NCBI RefSeq assembly: GCF_001577265.1
Contig: NZ_CP014517.1
Span: forward strand, 2,409,001-2,473,000
Direction of reading: 5' to 3'
Length of the DNA stretch: 64,000 nucleotides
Source of the DNA: Variovorax sp. PAMC 28711
GTDB lineage: Bacteria > Pseudomonadota > Gammaproteobacteria > Burkholderiales > Burkholderiaceae_C
The translations under genes and the position numbers were made by a program. Position 1 is the first letter of the stretch. The number at the start of each line of letters is the position of its first letter. Below, piece after piece: positions 17,126 to 24,618 of the stretch. Below the pieces are notes generated by a model, which made no database searches, had not been told where the DNA came from, and worked only from the letters and a program-made list of their open reading frames with translations.

Positions 17126-18193
17126 ATGCAACTCGCCGCAGCCCAGCTCACCGGGCACTTGCAGCAGGGACTGCGCTCGCTCTACACCCTGCACGGCGAC
17201 GAGCCGCTCCTCGCGCAAGAGGCCGCCGATGCGATTCGCGCGGTGGCGCGCACGCAGGGCTACACCGAGCGCAGCAGCTACACCGTGGCGGGTGCGCATT
17301 TCGACTGGAGCGCCGTGCTGGCCGCCGGCGGTTCGCTGAGTCTCTTCGCCGACAAGCAGATCGTCGAGATTCGCGTCCCGTCGGGCAAGCCGGGCAAGGA
17401 CGGCAGCGCGGCGCTTCAGCACATCGCCGAGCAGGCGCGCGGCAACGACAGCACGCTCACGCTCGTCATGCTGCCGCGGCTGGACAAGGCGACGCGAACC
17501 GGCGCGTGGTTTTCCGCGCTCGAGAACAACGGCGTGAGCCTGCAGGTCGATCCGGTCGAGCGCGCCGCGCTGCCGCAGTGGATCGCGCAACGTCTGGCCA
17601 CGCAGAACCAGCGCGTGAAGGCCGGCGACGAAGGACAGCGCACGCTGCAGTTCTTCGCGGACCGCGTGGAGGGCAACCTGCTGGCTGCGCACCAGGAAAT
17701 CCAGAAACTCGCGTTGCTGCATCCGGCAGGTGAGCTGAGCTGGGAACAGGTCGAAGGCGCGGTCAACAACGTGGCGCGCTACGACGTGTTCAAGCTGTCC
17801 GAAGCGGTGCTCGGCGGCAACCCGGTGCGCGTGGCGCGCATGCTCGACGGCCTGCGCGCCGAGGGCGAGGCCGAGGTGCTGGTGCACTACACGCTGGCCG
17901 AAGACATTCGCGCGCTCAAGCGCGTGAAAGACGCCATGGCCGCCGGCCGCCCGCTGCCGATGGCGCTGCGCGAGAACCGCATCTGGGGACCGCGCGAGCG
18001 CGCCTTCGAGCGGGTGCTGCCGCGCATGGACGATCGGCTGCTGGCGCGCCTGCTGCGCGCCGCGCACGTGGTCGACGGCATCGTCAAGGGCTTGAAGCAG
18101 CCCGACTGGCCGGCCAACGGCTGGCAGGCGCTGCAGCGGCTCGCGCTGATGCTGTGCCGCGCCTGCGCCAACGCACCGCCTAGCGGACGTTGA
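17126..18193 (+). CDS. holA: DNA polymerase III subunit delta
   Basis: Clamp-loader subunit that opens the beta sliding clamp. The 355-residue protein has the HolA layout: an N-terminal AAA-like domain starting with a clamp-binding region (S-L-Y-T-L-H-G-D-E-P-L-L near residue 19), a helical middle domain, and a C-terminal collar domain ending in helices with Q-P-D-W and L-A-L-M-L-C. It lies 12 bp after lptE in the same orientation. Its last 14 bases overlap the 3' end of the convergent oxidase gene, leaving no room for a conventional terminator. Confidence 0.94.
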   Translation: MQLAAAQLTGHLQQGLRSLYTLHGDEPLLAQEAADAIRAVARTQGYTERSSYTVAGAHFDWSAVLAAGGSLSLFADKQIVEIRVPSGKPGKDGSAALQHIAEQARGNDSTLTLVMLPRLDKATRTGAWFSALENNGVSLQVDPVERAALPQWIAQRLATQNQRVKAGDEGQRTLQFFADRVEGNLLAAHQEIQKLALLHPAGELSWEQVEGAVNNVARYDVFKLSEAVLGGNPVRVARMLDGLRAEGEAEVLVHYTLAEDIRALKRVKDAMAAGRPLPMALRENRIWGPRERAFERVLPRMDDRLLARLLRAAHVVDGIVKGLKQPDWPANGWQALQRLALMLCRACANAPPSGR

Positions 18194-20147
18194 TCGTCCG
18201 CGCCACGCTCGGCACGCCTTGGGCGTCGAGCGCGAACAGCATGTAGTTGCCGGGCAGCAGCACGCCGCGTTCTGTCGGGATCGTCAGCGCGTAGTCCCCC
18301 GTCGCGCCCGTGAAGCTCACCGGGATGCGCCGTTGATCGGTGTTGACCGAATGCGTCGCCGACGCCATGCGCACCAGCGCGAAATGGCTCACCGCGCGAT
18401 CCGTCTTCACCGCGATCACGCTGCCGTAGGTGGTGAGCGCGGGCGCCGCTGTGATGGCCGGTCGTTCGGCCAGCTTGCCGTTCGGCGTCAGCAGGTAGGG
18501 CGGCGTGAGGATCTCGGCGTTCGGATGGTTCGCGGCGCAGCCCGTGCCGCAGAGGCCGCCGCCGCCGGCCAGCACCCGGCCGTCGATCAGGAGCAGCGCC
18601 ACGCTGTGGTAGTTGCGCGGCACCTGCATCGGCCTCAGGGGCATGAAGGTCTCGGTGGCCGGATTCCACAGCTCGGGCGTCAGGACGGAGAAGTCGTCTG
18701 GCGTCGGACCGTGTTCGGTCATGCCGCCGATCACCACCACGTCGCCGTTGGGCAGCACCACGCTGTTCGAGAAGGTGCGGCCGTAGGCCATCGGTGCCAG
18801 TTTGCGCACCGTGGGGGGCTTCGGCGCGCCGGCTGAAATGTCGATGCTGTAGGCCGTCTTGAGCGGGATGCCGTAGTCGTGGCCCGGCGAGCCGGCCACT
18901 TTCAGGATCTTGTTCACGTCGTACATCACGGCGCCGCCGGTCATGGCGTAGGCGTCGTCGCCGCGCGGGCCGGCCTGGACGATCTTGCCGTTGCCGCGCG
19001 TGTCGATCCAGTGCATCGCCGCGCTCGGGCCGGCGTGGAACACCCAGCCGTCCGTCGAACCGAACAGCCACATGTGGTTGTCGGCGCGGAAATAGCCGCC
19101 GAGGTCGGGGCCGGCCAGCGGCGGGTCGTTGGCGTTGGCGGCCGAGGGCATGTCGGCAGGCACGTCGCTCAGCGTGCGCCAGGTCCGGGCCGACGCCGAC
19201 CAGACTTCGCCGTACTTGCCGCCCAGCGCGAGGCCGTTCCAGGAGCCGCCGACGAGGAACACCGACCCATCGGACATCGTGGTGCTGGACTGGTAGCCGC
19301 GCGCGATGTTCATCGACGACGCCCCGACCCAGCCGCCCAGCGACGGGTCGTACAGCGTGGTCTTGCCGCTGTCCCAGCCGCCGGTCACCATGAAGCTGCC
19401 ATCGGCCAGCATGCTGATGCCGGGGCACACCATGTTGTGGCCGGTTTCGGTCGCCATGCGGGGGGTGGCCGTTTGCGTCTGCGGATCGAACACGGCGGTG
19501 AGCGTGCGGCCGGTGATGTTGAGCCCGCCCATGCCGTCGTCGCTGCCCGCCGCCCACAACAGCAACTGGCCGTCGGGCAGGTTGGCGGCGGCGGCGGGGA
19601 CCAGCGTCAGCGGAATCGGGTCCGTCCACGGCTGCACGGCAGCGTTCGACTGCAGCGCCGTGTAACCGGCCGCGGTGAAGTGGTACACGACCGGCGCGAG
19701 CCACACGCCGTCCTTGCGCGTCGTGAGCGTCGCCGTCAGCGCTTCGCCTTGTGTCGGCAGGCCCTTCACGGTCGTCTCGCTGCCGGTGACGATGCCATCG
19801 TAGAGCGGGGTGGTCGACGAGGCGGATTCGATGCGCAGCGCGTAGTCGTCGCCCTCGGTCGGACCCCAGCTGAAGCGCACGTCGGCGCCGGGCAACTTGC
19901 TGTCCGCGGCGGGGCTGACGAGGGCCGCGGCGCGCGGCGCGGACGCTGCGGGGGTTGCGGGCGTGGTGGTCGGTGAGGAGGGCGACGTTGGCGCACCCGG
20001 TTCGGTGGCGGCGGGCGCGCCTGCCGTGCCGGTCGTGCCGGGGAGGAAGCCGATACCGCTGGCACCGCCGCCACCGCCGCAGGCGGCAAGAAGCAATGCG
20101 GGCAAGAGGGCGAGGACTGGCAAGCGACTCGAAGGCGATGAGGTCAT
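18180..20147 (-). CDS. galactose-oxidase-type copper-radical enzyme, lipoprotein (paralogue 1)
   Basis: Predicted exported lipoprotein of 655 residues: signal peptide with lipobox L-L-A-A-C (Cys23), a Gly run, a Pro/Thr/Ser linker to about residue 70, a fibronectin-like region, a Kelch beta-propeller, and a C-terminal DUF1929 (galactose-oxidase-like early-set) domain. All cofactor residues of Fusarium galactose oxidase are seen: Cys241 and Tyr285 for the Cys-Tyr crosslink (44 apart, as in the enzyme), Trp303 for the stacking tryptophan, copper ligands Tyr513-His514, and His599 in T-H-S-V-N-T-D-Q-R-R-I-P. The family makes aldehydes from alcohols with H2O2 release; the substrate here is unknown. 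The start at 20147 is preferred because the longer frame overlaps the SCO gene. Last gene of the four-gene operon; its end overlaps holA. Confidence 0.88.
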   Translation of the reverse strand: MTSSPSSRLPVLALLPALLLAACGGGGGASGIGFLPGTTGTAGAPAATEPGAPTSPSSPTTTPATPAASAPRAAALVSPAADSKLPGADVRFSWGPTEGDDYALRIESASSTTPLYDGIVTGSETTVKGLPTQGEALTATLTTRKDGVWLAPVVYHFTAAGYTALQSNAAVQPWTDPIPLTLVPAAAANLPDGQLLLWAAGSDDGMGGLNITGRTLTAVFDPQTQTATPRMATETGHNMVCPGISMLADGSFMVTGGWDSGKTTLYDPSLGGWVGASSMNIARGYQSSTTMSDGSVFLVGGSWNGLALGGKYGEVWSASARTWRTLSDVPADMPSAANANDPPLAGPDLGGYFRADNHMWLFGSTDGWVFHAGPSAAMHWIDTRGNGKIVQAGPRGDDAYAMTGGAVMYDVNKILKVAGSPGHDYGIPLKTAYSIDISAGAPKPPTVRKLAPMAYGRTFSNSVVLPNGDVVVIGGMTEHGPTPDDFSVLTPELWNPATETFMPLRPMQVPRNYHSVALLLIDGRVLAGGGGLCGTGCAANHPNAEILTPPYLLTPNGKLAERPAITAAPALTTYGSVIAVKTDRAVSHFALVRMASATHSVNTDQRRIPVSFTGATGDYALTIPTERGVLLPGNYMLFALDAQGVPSVARTINVR

Positions 20148-20173
20148 GTGTGCGTCCCCTGAAGAGGCGCGCT

Positions 20174-20770
20174 TCAAGCCCGGAGTTGCTGGAGCGCGCC
20201 GAGCACTTCGGCAACCGGCGGCAGCCCGCTCGTGCGCCAGGCGAGACGGCCTTCGCGGTCGAACAGATGGAGTTCGGTGGTGTGGCGGTCGCCGGTGGTC
20301 TGGCCGCGCTTTCCGAGGAAATCGAGCATGCGGTCGAGGTCGTTCGCGGCGGGTGCTGCGGCGCTCCAGCGGGCATCGGCGCCGTACTGCTTCAGCCAGG
20401 CGCGCAGTGCCGCGGGCGAGTCACCGAGCGGGTCGATGCTGAGCGAGAGCAATCGCACGTCGCCCATCGACCGCGCAGCCAACCCCGCCTGCAACGAAGC
20501 GAACAATGCGCCCTGCAATGGGCACACGGCGCTGCAACCCGTGAACATGAGCTGCACAGCCGTGACACCGCCTTTCAACTGCTCGCCCAAAGGCAGTGAG
20601 CGGCCGTCGCTGCGAAGCAACTGGAGCGACGGTGGCGCGCTTCTCGGCCGAACCGGCCCCATGCCGTCCGACAGCGCGGCGCCGGTCCGGCTGCCCAATG
20701 CGACGAGTCCGGCCGCGGCGATGAGGCGTCGGCGCCGGCCGCAAAATGAGTCGGGGACGCGCGTGTTCAT
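20174..20770 (-). CDS. SCO1/SenC-family copper chaperone (thioredoxin fold)
   Basis: Exported copper chaperone of 198 residues starting at 20770, where its ATG overlaps the cytochrome stop (ATGA). The N-terminus has an R-R-R-R-L-I-A-A-A-G-L signal that could be Sec or Tat. The copper-binding pair is Cys79-x3-Cys83 in F-T-G-C-S-A-V-C-P-L, and the third ligand is most likely His163 in D-R-H-T-T-E-L-H. SCO proteins usually metallate the CuA site of cytochrome oxidase. Here there is no oxidase subunit gene nearby, and the flanking genes encode copper-radical enzymes, so a role in loading their copper is the likelier inference. The gap to the next gene is 26 bp. Confidence 0.88.
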   Translation of the reverse strand: MNTRVPDSFCGRRRRLIAAAGLVALGSRTGAALSDGMGPVRPRSAPPSLQLLRSDGRSLPLGEQLKGGVTAVQLMFTGCSAVCPLQGALFASLQAGLAARSMGDVRLLSLSIDPLGDSPAALRAWLKQYGADARWSAAAPAANDLDRMLDFLGKRGQTTGDRHTTELHLFDREGRLAWRTSGLPPVAEVLGALQQLRA

Positions 20771-21258
20771 GTCGGTTCCTGGGTGAGGTAAGTCCACAGC
20801 GCGTCGCAGCGCGCGTCGTCGATCTCGAAGCGCGGCATGACCCGCGGCAGCGTCACGTGCGCCGGATCGATACCGATGCGCAGGGCGCGGCAAAAGCCCG
20901 GCAGGTCGTAGGCGGTGGGCGGGCCGTTGCGGCGCGACAAGGTGGCTTGCAAGTGCGCGCGATCAAGGATCGGGCCCAGCGGCTGGGCCGTGATGGCCAC
21001 GGGCGACGCCGGGCCGGGTCCCATGTGGCACTGGCTGCAGCGCATGGCGCCGGCCGGCATCGGCGCGGCGTGCCCGGCCAAGATGCCGGCCAGCGGCTCC
21101 TGGCCGTCGAACAGCTGTCCGCCACGGGTCAGTTTGGCTTGCAGTGCCGACCGCTCCCGCCAGCCGTCGACGCCTGCAACCACGGCCACCGCCAGCAGCA
21201 TGGCGATGGTCAGTGCGAGCAGACCGCGCCACGGCGAGCGTGAGAGGTTCTTCGTCAT
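20767..21258 (-). CDS. membrane-anchored c-type cytochrome (single haem)
   Basis: A 163-residue protein with one N-terminal membrane span (about residues 12-30) and a periplasmic domain with one haem-binding C-S-Q-C-H at residues 74-78. Met141 (V-M-P-R-F-E-I) is a plausible sixth haem ligand. Spacing and length fit a small monohaem cytochrome c, although the family cannot be named precisely. It starts 16 bp after the stop of the upstream oxidase gene and overlaps the SCO gene by four bases. The context suggests it accepts electrons from, or supports, the copper-radical enzymes. This is an inference; these enzymes normally use oxygen. Confidence 0.85.
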   Translation of the reverse strand: MTKNLSRSPWRGLLALTIAMLLAVAVVAGVDGWRERSALQAKLTRGGQLFDGQEPLAGILAGHAAPMPAGAMRCSQCHMGPGPASPVAITAQPLGPILDRAHLQATLSRRNGPPTAYDLPGFCRALRIGIDPAHVTLPRVMPRFEIDDARCDALWTYLTQEPT

Positions 21259-21274
21259 GCAGCAGCCTTTTTCG

Positions 21275-23251
21275 CTAGCGGATGCTGATCGTCCGCGCCA
21301 CGCTCGGCACGCCCTTGGCGTCGAGCGCGAAGAGCATGTAGTTGCCGGTCAGCAGCATCCCGCGATCGGTCGGGATCGACAGCGCGTAGTCGCCCGCGCT
21401 GCCGGTGAAGCTCACCGGGATGCGGCGCTGGTCGGTGTTGACCGAGTGCGTCGTCGAGGCCATGCGCACCAGCGAGAAGCGGGCCACGGCGCGATCGGTC
21501 TTGACCGCGATGGTGTCGCCCCATGTCGCCCTGGCGGGTGCATCGGTGAGCGCCGGGCGCGGCGCGGGCGAGCCGTCGGGTGCGAGCAGGTAGGGCGGGG
21601 TGTAGATCTCGGCATCGGGGTGGTCGCCGGCACAGCCGCACAGGCCACCCCCGCCCGACATCACGCGGCCGTCCATCAGCAGCAGCGCGATGCTGTGGTA
21701 GTTGCGCGCCTTTTGCATCGGCGGCAGCGTGACAAAGGTCTCGGTGACCGGGTTCCAGAGCTCGGCCGCGAGCACGCCGTAGGCGTCGGAGAAGCCGACC
21801 GGCTGCGTCTGTCCGCCGACGACGATCACCTCGCCGTTGGGCAGCACGACGCTGTTCAGGAACGTGCGGCCATACGCCATCGGTGCGACCTTGCGGACTG
21901 TCGCGGGCTTCGGCGGGCCGGCGTTGATGTCGACGATGTAGGCGCTCTTGAAGGCCTGACCCGAGTCATGGTTCGGTGCGCCACCCGCCTTGAGAATCTT
22001 GCCGGTGTCGTACATCACGGCGCTGCCTGTCATGGCATAGGCATCGTCGCCGCGCAGGCCCGCCTGGACGATCTTGCCGGCGCCGCGCGTGTCGATCCAG
22101 TGCATCGCGGCGCTCGGGCCCGCCTGGAACACCCAGCCGTCCGCCTGGCCGAACAACCACATGTGGTTGTCGGCGCGGTAGAAGCCGGCCGCGTCGGGGC
22201 CATTGAGCGGCGGGTCGGCCACGTTGCTGGCGTCGGGCATGTTCGACGGCACGCCGGGCAGCGTGCGCCAAGTCTTGTTGGTGACCGACCAGACCTCGCC
22301 CACCTTGCCGCCGAGGCCACCGTTCCACGACCCGCCGACCGTGAACACCGAGCCATCGGACATCGTGGTGCTGGCGTTGTAGGCCCTCGGCACGTTCAGC
22401 ATCGCGCTTTGCGTCCATTTGGCGGTGGTGCTGTCGTAGATGGACGTCTTGCCCGCATCGCTGCCGCCCGACACCATGATGGCGCCGTCCGCCAGCATGC
22501 TGAGACCTTCGCAGAACATCTCCTGGCCGGGATTGGTCGTCGTAGCCGCCGTCGCTTTTTTCGCGACCGGATCGAAGACCGAGGTGTACGTGGCAGTGCC
22601 TTCGTTCGCACCGAAATAGGTGGGCGCACGGGCCGACCAGATCAGGATCTTGCCGTCGGGCAGGTTGGCGGCGGAGGCGGGCACCAGCGGCAGGTCGATG
22701 ACTTCGCTCCACGGCTGTTTGGCGGCGGTGGACTGCGCGGCGGTGTAGCCGGCGGCGGTAAAGGTGTAGCTGACCGGATCGAGCCACGCGTCTTTCACGC
22801 GGGTTTGCAATTGCACCGTGATCGCACTGCCATCGACGGGCAGTGTCGCCACGCTCACACGGGTGTCGGTGGTCTTGCCGTCGTAGAGCGGCACCGTGGC
22901 GCCGGATGCATTGACCGTCAGCCGGTATTCATCCGCGCCGGTGGCCAGCCAATCGAACGACACGGTGGTCGCGGCGAGCTTGCTGTCGGCCTGCGGGCTC
23001 GCGAGGACGGCGGCCTTCACGGGAGCAGGCGCCGGCGCCGGGGTGGATGTGGGATCGGTGCCGGCCACAGGACCGGGCGCTGGGGCCGGTGCGGGTGCAG
23101 GTGCTGGCGAAGGGGTCGGTGTCGGTGCGCCGATGACCGGAAATCCGCTCCCGCCCCCGCCCCCGCCCCCGCCCCCACCGCAAGAAGCCAGCAATGCCAG
23201 TGCCGCGCATGCCGCGGCCACCCCTCCCCGGGGCAGGTGCCTGATTTTCAT
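21275..23251 (-). CDS. galactose-oxidase-type copper-radical enzyme, lipoprotein (paralogue 2)
   Basis: A 658-residue paralogue of the enzyme encoded at 18180-20147. The signal peptide has lipobox L-L-A-S-C (Cys24), followed by ten glycines and an Ala-Pro-rich linker to about residue 78, which should hold the catalytic part away from the membrane. The cofactor set is again complete: Cys247 and Tyr291 (44 apart), Trp309, Tyr518-His519 and His602 in T-H-S-V-N-T-D-Q-R-R-I-P. Kelch propeller and C-terminal DUF1929 domain are present. Start: ATG at 23251 with AAGG about seven bases upstream. It is the first gene of the operon and diverges from proA. Confidence 0.88.
   Translation of the reverse strand: MKIRHLPRGGVAAACAALALLASCGGGGGGGGGGSGFPVIGAPTPTPSPAPAPAPAPAPGPVAGTDPTSTPAPAPAPVKAAVLASPQADSKLAATTVSFDWLATGADEYRLTVNASGATVPLYDGKTTDTRVSVATLPVDGSAITVQLQTRVKDAWLDPVSYTFTAAGYTAAQSTAAKQPWSEVIDLPLVPASAANLPDGKILIWSARAPTYFGANEGTATYTSVFDPVAKKATAATTTNPGQEMFCEGLSMLADGAIMVSGGSDAGKTSIYDSTTAKWTQSAMLNVPRAYNASTTMSDGSVFTVGGSWNGGLGGKVGEVWSVTNKTWRTLPGVPSNMPDASNVADPPLNGPDAAGFYRADNHMWLFGQADGWVFQAGPSAAMHWIDTRGAGKIVQAGLRGDDAYAMTGSAVMYDTGKILKAGGAPNHDSGQAFKSAYIVDINAGPPKPATVRKVAPMAYGRTFLNSVVLPNGEVIVVGGQTQPVGFSDAYGVLAAELWNPVTETFVTLPPMQKARNYHSIALLLMDGRVMSGGGGLCGCAGDHPDAEIYTPPYLLAPDGSPAPRPALTDAPARATWGDTIAVKTDRAVARFSLVRMASTTHSVNTDQRRIPVSFTGSAGDYALSIPTDRGMLLTGNYMLFALDAKGVPSVARTISIR
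23152..23175. repeat. hexanucleotide tandem repeat (CGCCCC)x4
   Basis: Four perfect copies of CGCCCC on the plus strand encode the poly-glycine run behind the lipobox of the oxidase on the minus strand. Because the unit is six bases, gain or loss of copies would change linker length by two residues without shifting frame. Confidence 0.85.
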
Positions 23252-23287
23252 ATGAAACCTTAAGTACTACGATGTGTGACGGGGCGT

Positions 23288-23316
23288 AGGGTAGCCGCGA
23301 CATATCGCAATGGCAA
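23288..23316 (-). promoter_or_regulatory. putative promoter of the copper-radical oxidase operon
   Basis: On the minus strand TTGCCA (23316-23311) and TACCCT (23293-23288) are spaced by 17 bp. Transcription would begin about 30 nt before the ATG at 23251. The -35 is good, the -10 weak, so an activator is possible. The 89-bp gap must also carry the proA signals on the other strand. Confidence 0.5.
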
Positions 23317-23340
23317 GCGCAAGAGTGGGAAAATGCCCGG

Positions 23341-24618
23341 ATGAACGCGTTCAATGTCCATGAGCACATGCAAGCCTTGGGTTTGCAGGCAAAAACGGCG
23401 GCAGCCCTGATGGCGAAGGCCGACGCCGCTACCAAAACGAGAGCCCTGAAAGCGCTGGCGCGGCGGGTGCGCGACGCCGGGCCGGCGCTCGACGCGGCCA
23501 ATCGTCGCGACGTCGAGCGCGCCACGGCGGCCGGCCTGTCGGCGCCGATGGTCGATCGCTTGAAGCTCACCCCGAAAGTGCTGGCCACCGTGGCCGAGGG
23601 CTGCGACCAGCTGGCCGCCATGCCCGACGTGATCGGCGAAATCATCGGCATGCGCCAGCAGCCGAGCGGCATCCGCGTCGGCCAGATGCGCGTGCCGATC
23701 GGCGTCTTCGGCATGATCTACGAGAGCCGTCCCAACGTCACGATCGAGGCCGCCAGCCTGGCGATCAAGAGCGGCAACGCGGCCATCCTGCGCGGCGGCT
23801 CCGAAGCCATCGAGTCGAACAAGGCGTTGGCCGCGCTGGTCGGCGCCGCGCTGGACGAGGCCGGCCTGCCGCGCGATGCCGTGCAGCTCGTGCAAACCAC
23901 CGACCGCGAAGCCGTCGGCCAGCTCATCACGATGCCGCAGTTTGTCGACGTGATCATTCCGCGCGGCGGCAAGGGGCTGATCGAGCGCATCAGCCGCGAC
24001 GCGAAGGTGCCCGTCATCAAGCATCTGGACGGCAACTGCCACGTCTACGTCGACGACAGCGCCGAACTCGACATGGCGCAGAGGATCGTCGACAACGCCA
24101 AGACGCAGAAGTACAGCCCCTGCAATGCCGCCGAAGGGCTGCTCGTGACGGCGTCAGTCGCCGCCGCGTTCCTGCCGCAGATCGGGGCCGTCTTCGCAGC
24201 AAAGGGTGTCGAGATGCGTTGCGACGCGACGGCCGCGGCCGTGTTGCGCGGTGCCGGCTTCGCGGTGGTCGACGCGGTCGAATCGGACTGGTCCGAGGAA
24301 TACCTGGCGGCCGTCATCAGCATCAAGGTGGTGGCCGGCGTGGACGAGGCGATCGCGCACATCAACCACTATTCGAGCCACCACACCGACGCCATCGTCA
24401 CGCGCGACCATGTCAACGCCCAGCGTTTCCTGCGCGAGGTCGATTCGGCCAGCGTGTTGGTCAATGCGAGCACCCGCTTCGCGGACGGCTTCGAATTCGG
24501 ACTCGGCGCGGAAATCGGCATCAGCACCGACAAGTTTCATGCGCGCGGGCCGGTAGGCATCGAGGGCCTGACCTCGCTCAAATACGTGGTGTTGGGCCAG
24601 GGCGAAGTACGCACCTGA
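23341..24618 (+). CDS. proA: gamma-glutamyl phosphate reductase
   Basis: Second step of proline synthesis: NADPH reduction of gamma-glutamyl phosphate to glutamate semialdehyde. The 425-residue protein is of normal length and has the aldehyde-dehydrogenase-like fold. The catalytic cysteine is in [10 protein letters not shown], with the nucleotide-binding I-Y-E-S-R-P-N-V-T and L-R-G-G-S-E segments, and [13 protein letters not shown] near the C-terminus. In related genomes proA commonly follows holA; here the oxidase operon intervenes on the opposite strand. No proB is visible in the window. Confidence 0.96.

Follow-up and report, generated by a model that had tools for sequence, protein, structure and literature searches.

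In Streptomyces, maturation of the copper radical oxidase GlxA at low copper needs both the chaperone Sco and the haem peroxidase DtpA; GlxA is immature in sco and dtpA mutants in liquid culture without added copper, and DtpA has been proposed to oxidise the Cu(I) bound to Sco (PMC4736821). In fungal pairs of AlcOx and Tandem Peroxidase, the haem peroxidase activates the neighbouring oxidase, with electron paramagnetic resonance indicating a one-electron oxidation without substrate, and copper radical oxidases in vitro are described as needing added peroxidase for maximum activity (PMC9770985). The mof operons encode a multicopper oxidase together with mofC, a protein with a cytochrome c domain, to which Rubrivivax A210 adds a copper metallochaperone (PMC8218464). 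We describe a locus of Variovorax sp. PAMC 28711, found in a stretch of 64,000 nucleotides (contig NZ_CP014517.1, positions 2,409,001 to 2,473,000; hereafter the window), in which two galactose-oxidase-type copper radical oxidases (GOX_A and GOX_B) are encoded with a monohaem cytochrome c (CYT) and a SCO1/SenC copper chaperone (SCO). Comparison across genomes gives good support to the view that oxidase, CYT and SCO form a conserved module in many Burkholderiales.

With fungal galactose oxidase, of family AA5 (1gof), the oxidases of the window share the radical-copper centre, the Kelch motifs and the GO-like early-set domain; unlike it, they are bacterial, putatively lipid-anchored and encoded with SCO and a cytochrome c, and their pocket is partly changed (at Y405 and Q406, and in GOX_B also at F194 and F464). 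The likeness to GlxA, Sco and DtpA lies in a copper radical oxidase tied to Sco and to a haem protein, but GlxA belongs to a distant branch, and the haem partner is a DyP peroxidase in Streptomyces and a small c-type cytochrome here, where one compact operon holds the set; the operon contains no DyP-type peroxidase, the rest of the genome not having been searched for one. The oxidase of the fungal pairs adjoins a dedicated activating haem partner, which is a class II peroxidase, whereas here a cytochrome c and SCO are found, and relatives carry a fused di-haem domain. As in the present locus, the mof operons of Leptothrix and Rubrivivax A210 encode a copper oxidase with a cytochrome c and, in A210, a chaperone, but their enzyme is a multicopper oxidase of a fold unrelated to galactose oxidase, and mofC is likened to CYT by operon context. 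Finally, the fused relatives end in a domain that matches CCP_MauG and recalls the bCCP/MauG superfamily (BthA of Burkholderia, PMC6405878), from which it differs in being fused to a galactose oxidase; it was found in relatives and not in the genome of the window. An operon of galactose oxidase, SCO and cytochrome c, or a di-haem fusion of this kind, is undescribed in open-access titles and abstract openings among the matches listed. A bacterial three-gene module makes it testable how such enzymes obtain their copper and become active inside the cell.

The four genes lie intact on the minus strand in the order GOX_A (21275..23251), CYT (20767..21258), SCO (20174..20770) and GOX_B (18180..20147). 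Their coordinates confirm the gaps of 16, -4 and 26 bp given in an initial annotation of this DNA, the negative value being a 4-bp overlap of the SCO start codon with the CYT stop. GOX_B was taken from its ATG start; the mechanical open reading frame begins at a TTG 30 bp earlier. Since no sigma-70-like promoter was found in 23200-23420, operon status is based on spacing and strand. At 0.69-0.71, the GC content of the four genes resembles that of five genes flanking them (0.64-0.70), and there is therefore no compositional sign of recent import.

That both enzymes are copper-radical oxidases, as first annotated, was borne out by sequence. PF09118 (GO-like_E_set) is found in the two at 74.6 and 69.9 bits (Pfam, cut-off 25), Kelch_6 lies above its Pfam cut-off in both, and fungal galactose oxidase 1gof is matched at 402.2 bits by GOX_A and 394.5 bits by GOX_B; entries 9g8h and 9g43, named galactose oxidase, are matched at 463 and 472 bits. 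The radical-copper residues are complete: in the alignment, C228, Y272, W290, Y495, H496 and H581 of 1gof correspond to C247, Y291, W309, Y518, H519 and H602 of GOX_A, and GOX_B has the same residues. In this centre Cys and Tyr form a cross-linked radical cofactor, and the second Tyr and the two His are copper ligands. Y272, Y495, H496 and H581 (1gof numbering, here and below) are present in 62/62 aligned oxidases, the two of the window included, C228 in 61, the missing one being a fragment with a gap there, and W290 in 59, F standing in its place in the other three. GlxA did not hold up as the nearest enzyme and was rejected as closest relative: the NCBIfam GlxA model gives 137.4 and 150.8 bits with the two oxidases against a cut-off of 800, so that neither is a GlxA by this equivalog model, and 1gof scores much higher. 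Three chains named 'secreted protein', presumably Streptomyces GlxA, score about 88-89 and 115-116 bits against the oxidases of the window. By alignment and scores, GOX_A and GOX_B belong with the true galactose oxidases among the copper radical oxidases and have a complete radical-copper site.

Among pocket residues, R330 is kept in 35 of the 62 oxidases, F194 in 52 and F464 in 55. GOX_A retains F194, R330, H334 and F464, GOX_B retains R330 and has M in place of F194 and T in place of F464, and both differ from 1gof at Y405 and Q406. Because the pocket of GOX_B differs at F194 and F464, the two enzymes, which are 62% identical over the aligned region, may act on different substrates, possibly with a maturation kit in common. 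The proposal that both are lipoproteins with long flexible linkers fits the pair in the window, GOX_A (658 amino acids, aa) being a putative lipoprotein at Cys24 with a Pro/Ala-rich linker and GOX_B at Cys23; the lipoboxes read by eye are LLAS-C24 and LLAA-C23, with GGG directly after each, and Pro/Ala/Thr-rich linkers occur in both. It could not be extended to relatives: a strict lipobox motif test was passed by at least 37 of 60 oxidases and failed by 11 of 15 compact Variovorax oxidases (see below), some of the failures looking like genuine lipoboxes by eye, which weakens lipid anchoring as a conserved trait. A third, distant copper radical oxidase gene of the same genome (G000:C1:4134107-4135501, L018; G and L are our working numbers for genomes and loci), 35% identical to GOX_A, has neither CYT nor SCO within the 18 kb looked at.

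SCO contains PF02630 (SCO1-SenC) at 39.7 bits (Pfam, cut-off 22.8) and matches solved Sco1-family chains, the best at 46.1 bits (phmmer). C79xxxC83, D113 and H163 are invariant in eight aligned members, the CxxxC copper/thiol motif (CSAVC, 20522..20536, minus strand) being read from the sequence and the alignment of members. The genome encodes another SCO at a different place, which scores better (156 bits), besides a third match below the cut-off, and the operon gene is therefore an extra copy. An RR motif precedes the SCO signal in 63/64 cases, counted with no control set alongside, and could indicate Tat export.

CYT, of 163 aa, carries a CxxCH haem-binding motif read directly from the sequence (CSQCH, 21025..21039, minus strand) and matches no Pfam family or solved chain; 25/61 aligned members weakly match PF13442 and 21/61 PF00034, the one in the window neither. 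C74xxCH78, M141, C123, C151, R109, P113 and W155 are invariant in the 61 members, M141 being the probable sixth haem ligand. The AlphaFold model (mean pLDDT 90.1) is helical, with a long N-terminal helix (10-51) predicted to be a membrane anchor, and the CxxCH, the conserved Met and the small helical fold are consistent with a class I-like c-type cytochrome. The alignment comprised the CYT of the window and 60 of 63 located members (L040, L042 and L065 were removed by hand); L087, whose CYT part scored lower, is outside the 63. The CYT profile retrieved 510 proteins at E <= 1e-5 among 7996 candidates scored; most of the 120 listed are unnamed or 'hypothetical protein', and among the matches listed are two close relatives, P0078 and P0096, named Polyangiaceae (Myxococcota) and annotated as hypothetical proteins.

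Co-occurrence of the three genes, which the initial annotation had put forward as a check, was clearly observed. In a family sample of 150 genomes from 141 genera, with the CYT and oxidase searches on the same draw as judged by handles and tallies, the nine genomes with CYT at E < 1e-14 were the same nine with an oxidase above 400 bits, and the other 141 had neither (Fisher p = 1.2e-14, with the relatedness of the genomes uncorrected). Three of this sample (G091, G101, G109) showed weak cytochrome matches only, with E from 2.8e-7 to 8.9e-4; in G033 the oxidase, at 159 bits, is a distant one, and CYT was not matched. The module genes are clustered in 7/9 genomes; of the other two, G076 has its oxidase on the same contig but unlinked, and G043 has the parts spread over different contigs. 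Wider searches covered 399 genomes of the order and 398 of the phylum, with part of the first-look candidates scored per genome. Among the scored candidates of the order, a strong CYT and a close oxidase occurred together only in G000 and G165, and 16 further genomes gave no more than distant matches to the cytochrome. G508 was left unjudged: its close oxidase sits on a contig of 3 kb, and CYT was not matched in this genome, which is 79% complete. In the phylum, 10 genomes besides that of the window gave matches, all to distant cytochromes and at most at 60 bits.

Clustering was also evident in 70 loci of a named collection, which were recruited by SCO, so that their SCO rate is by construction; all are Burkholderiales where the title names a genus, the assignment of genera to the order being partly our assumption. 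CYT and SCO are found in 63 of them and SCO only in seven, and an oxidase is nearby in 59/63, upstream in 52, downstream in five and divergent in two, and never more than 490 bp away from the block of CYT and SCO. A plasmid search recruited by the oxidase gave nine records, of which seven were fetched and H7 and H8, both Streptomyces, left out; CYT and SCO are present in 6/6 Burkholderiales plasmid loci, in the orders GOX-CYT-SCO and SCO-GOX-CYT and, once, split over both strands. Conservation of gene order, as first expected, was thus found in part: the three-gene set is kept, but its order varies and the two-oxidase layout is not kept (L035, see below). Over 37 loci, thinned from 58, pairwise distances of the three proteins correlate at r 0.44-0.55, a figure to which shared species history contributes; 2000 permutations reached 0.31 at most. 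This clustering suggests that such oxidases need a dedicated copper-loading and electron-transfer kit.

The oxidases of the 59 clustered loci are of two sizes. Seventeen are compact (15 from Variovorax, one from Massilia and one from Burkholderia multivorans), and 42 are giants of about 1,690-2,510 aa that match our own di-haem CCP/MauG-like profile, with at least two CxxCH motifs in each giant examined. In two giants scanned with Pfam, the oxidase comes first, then Ig/F5-8C/PKD domains, then a YncE-like propeller that stays below the Pfam cut-off, and then a CCP_MauG-like part, after which one of the two also has PA14; the propeller and di-haem parts of one giant match solved propeller and di-haem peroxidase chains. 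In the column of the di-haem domain aligned with a Met of a solved peroxidase, most members have His by eye, which may be a ligand. No di-haem domain was found in the genome of the window, where the best match (34.5 bits) was to the propeller part only. CYT is retained whether or not the fused domain is present, and therefore its job would concern the oxidase or SCO; electron donation to the di-haem domain as its only role was rejected, since the compact forms keep CYT.

The initial suggestion of a copper-loading and electron-transfer module stands as far as the conserved set and the extra SCO beside a better-scoring one are concerned, while its part on the job of CYT is interpretation. We consider the chances about even that SCO loads copper and that CYT is the one-electron partner of the oxidase in maturation or activation. 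The oxidase would oxidise a primary alcohol through its Cu/Tyr-Cys radical site and O2, probably one of a sugar or glycan located at the outer membrane or beyond it. SCO would hand copper to it in the periplasm, and CYT would take one electron during cofactor building, when Cu(I) goes to Cu(II) and the Tyr-Cys cross-link forms, or alternatively when the resting Cu(II) form becomes the active radical, and would pass it on to the respiratory chain; anchored in the periplasm, it would act on the oxidase in transit. The Sco/DtpA and fungal precedents point by analogy to a maturation or activation role of CYT. A plasmid copy of the module in Paraburkholderia sprentiae adjoins exopolysaccharide genes, which hints at a glycan substrate; other neighbours are found in two further annotated Burkholderiales copies.

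Several observations weigh against this reading. By profile, no oxidase was found in 4/63 loci (L054, L062, L072 and L088), of which L054 and L062 lie near contig ends and L072 and L088 do not; the genome of L088 carries an unlinked oxidase, and L054, although counted among the four, gave fragments of an oxidase protein by tblastn. A Streptomyces plasmid oxidase with 49% identity has neither partner within 9 kb (the one inspected of three Streptomyces matches), so the partners are not required by every enzyme of the branch. Distant oxidases of about 145-265 bits (G181, G499, G175, G172, G261 and G293) come without a CYT match, and the module therefore belongs to the close oxidase branch. The potential of a His/Met-type cytochrome c may be insufficient for oxidation of the tyrosine, and an oxidase on the cell surface, if that is where it resides, could not meet an inner-membrane CYT there. 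The reading is one from sequences, which show the active-site residues, the SCO and haem motifs, and how the three genes co-occur and cluster. A more specific version, in which the dedicated CYT is the natural one-electron partner of a bacterial galactose oxidase, generating or regenerating its tyrosyl radical or else enabling the enzyme to use the respiratory chain and not O2, we hold to be possible but rather doubtful. If it were true, bacteria would have solved the activation of radical oxidases with a c-type cytochrome, and not with a separate secreted peroxidase, and CYT would be backed in many relatives by a fused di-haem domain; a CYT that activates the enzyme could possibly be of help in biocatalysis with galactose oxidases.

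CYT could instead act on SCO, oxidising the Cu(I) bound to it to Cu(II), or poising its thiols, for a correct hand-over of copper. CYT precedes SCO on the same strand in the 63 loci, adjacent in all but L082 (a gap of about 0.9 kb), with the 4-bp overlap of stop and start in 44/64 pairs, and in L087 the two matches share one frame; the position of the oxidase varies, on either side, divergent or unlinked (G076). The proposal that DtpA oxidises Cu(I) in Streptomyces (PMC4736821), in a report that bears out the earlier remark that a Sco-type chaperone supports GlxA, is in line with such a role. Distant relatives of CYT adjoin SCO genes in four of the five loci inspected (L120, L122, L123 and L124), as proteins of about 460-590 aa, one of which weakly matches a periplasmic-binding domain; part of the neighbours of these distant loci was scanned. 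Multicopper-oxidase genes are also present in L120 and L124, which are possibly mof-like loci, and a kit of SCO and cytochrome c may be shared by secreted copper oxidases whose folds are unrelated. Against an action on SCO, the oxidase sits between SCO and CYT in the plasmid loci L142, L144 and L145, which shows the pair to be divisible and weakens the idea of an indivisible unit that we had entertained. On balance we consider it unlikely, though deserving of attention, that SCO is the partner of CYT.

The initial annotation also raised the possibility of a dehydrogenase variant. In such a mode CYT would be the catalytic acceptor, and the electrons of the substrate-reduced oxidase would pass through it to the respiratory chain and not to O2. 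In its favour, CYT is of c-type, has a predicted N-terminal anchor and is fixed beside the oxidase, and both look exported; but every checked residue of the O2-using radical-copper centre is kept, which leaves the proposal without specific support, and the adhesion-type domains on the oxidases of relatives (two scanned) suggest work away from the inner membrane, so that we regard this mode as improbable. Slightly more improbable still is that CYT feeds the fused CCP/MauG-like domain as a peroxidase removing the H2O2 made by the oxidase. The di-haem fusion in 42/59 clustered oxidases by our own profile, the Pfam CCP_MauG part of the two giants scanned, the solved di-haem peroxidases matched by one of them and the haem motifs would all agree with peroxide disposal, but the 17 compact loci keep CYT without such a domain, and it is absent from the genome of the window (best match 34.5 bits), where a stand-alone peroxidase was not searched for. 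That transfer history alone made these genes neighbours, with no functional link between them, is very hard to believe, for although the module is mobile, with plasmid copies and two types in one Burkholderia multivorans assembly (L090, L100), the parts co-occur in 9/9 against 0/141 genomes, stay together through repeated reshuffling of gene order and, in one genome, are all kept although unlinked.

As to the second oxidase, the idea that two enzymes are part of the design did not survive. The operon is flanked on the plus strand by holA (17126-18193), which is convergent with GOX_B and overlaps it by 14 bp, and proA (23341-24618), both named from a reading of their translations. Variovorax sp. 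N23 (L035) is the sole locus of the 70 with the same flanks, and there SCO is followed directly by holA, with no GOX_B. In a tree of 67 tips (the 62 aligned oxidases, the giants L113 and L119 and three outgroups), GOX_A stands beside the N23 enzyme (79% identity, support 100/99) in the Variovorax compact clade, and GOX_B branches outside the 16 compact oxidases that include GOX_A. Among the 59 oxidase-bearing loci, a further oxidase occurs only in L100, where the entire module is repeated in tandem. The two-oxidase layout was therefore rejected as a conserved unit, GOX_B being absent from L035 and no second oxidase following SCO in this way in relatives; GOX_B is not a fixed part of the module, and would be an older duplicate kept here, a gene lost in L035 or a separate acquisition.

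Some single loci deserve mention. Burkholderia multivorans WS-FJ9 holds the two tandem GOX-CYT-SCO sets of L100 side by side, and a third, fused type on another contig (L090). In Cupriavidus oxalaticus (L143:10709-12052) the strand opposite a compact oxidase bears CYT, a 77-aa piece of oxidase and SCO, perhaps a decayed second copy. In an Aquabacterium metagenome-assembled genome (MAG), CYT and SCO matches lie in one 365-aa open frame (L087:9410-10507), either a fusion or a sequencing error. CYT-SCO pairs without an adjacent oxidase are located at L072:3180-4666 and L088:9243-11508, and in L088 the next open frame, of 335 aa, has no Pfam match. G076 carries a different, di-haem-fused galactose-oxidase branch directly after its own SCO gene, with one internal TAG (L114:3678-8366), and in a Rhizobacter MAG a two-haem frame that the contig end truncates lies directly upstream of a fused oxidase (L099:3-1967). 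G122, of the same genus as the window, in which no close oxidase or CYT was found, encodes two proteins, each about 1,600 aa long, that contain the two-haem domain and gave no match to galactose oxidase (L116, G122:C20; L117, G122:C2); the one scanned with Pfam contains ricin-type lectin, PKD and laminin-G domains.

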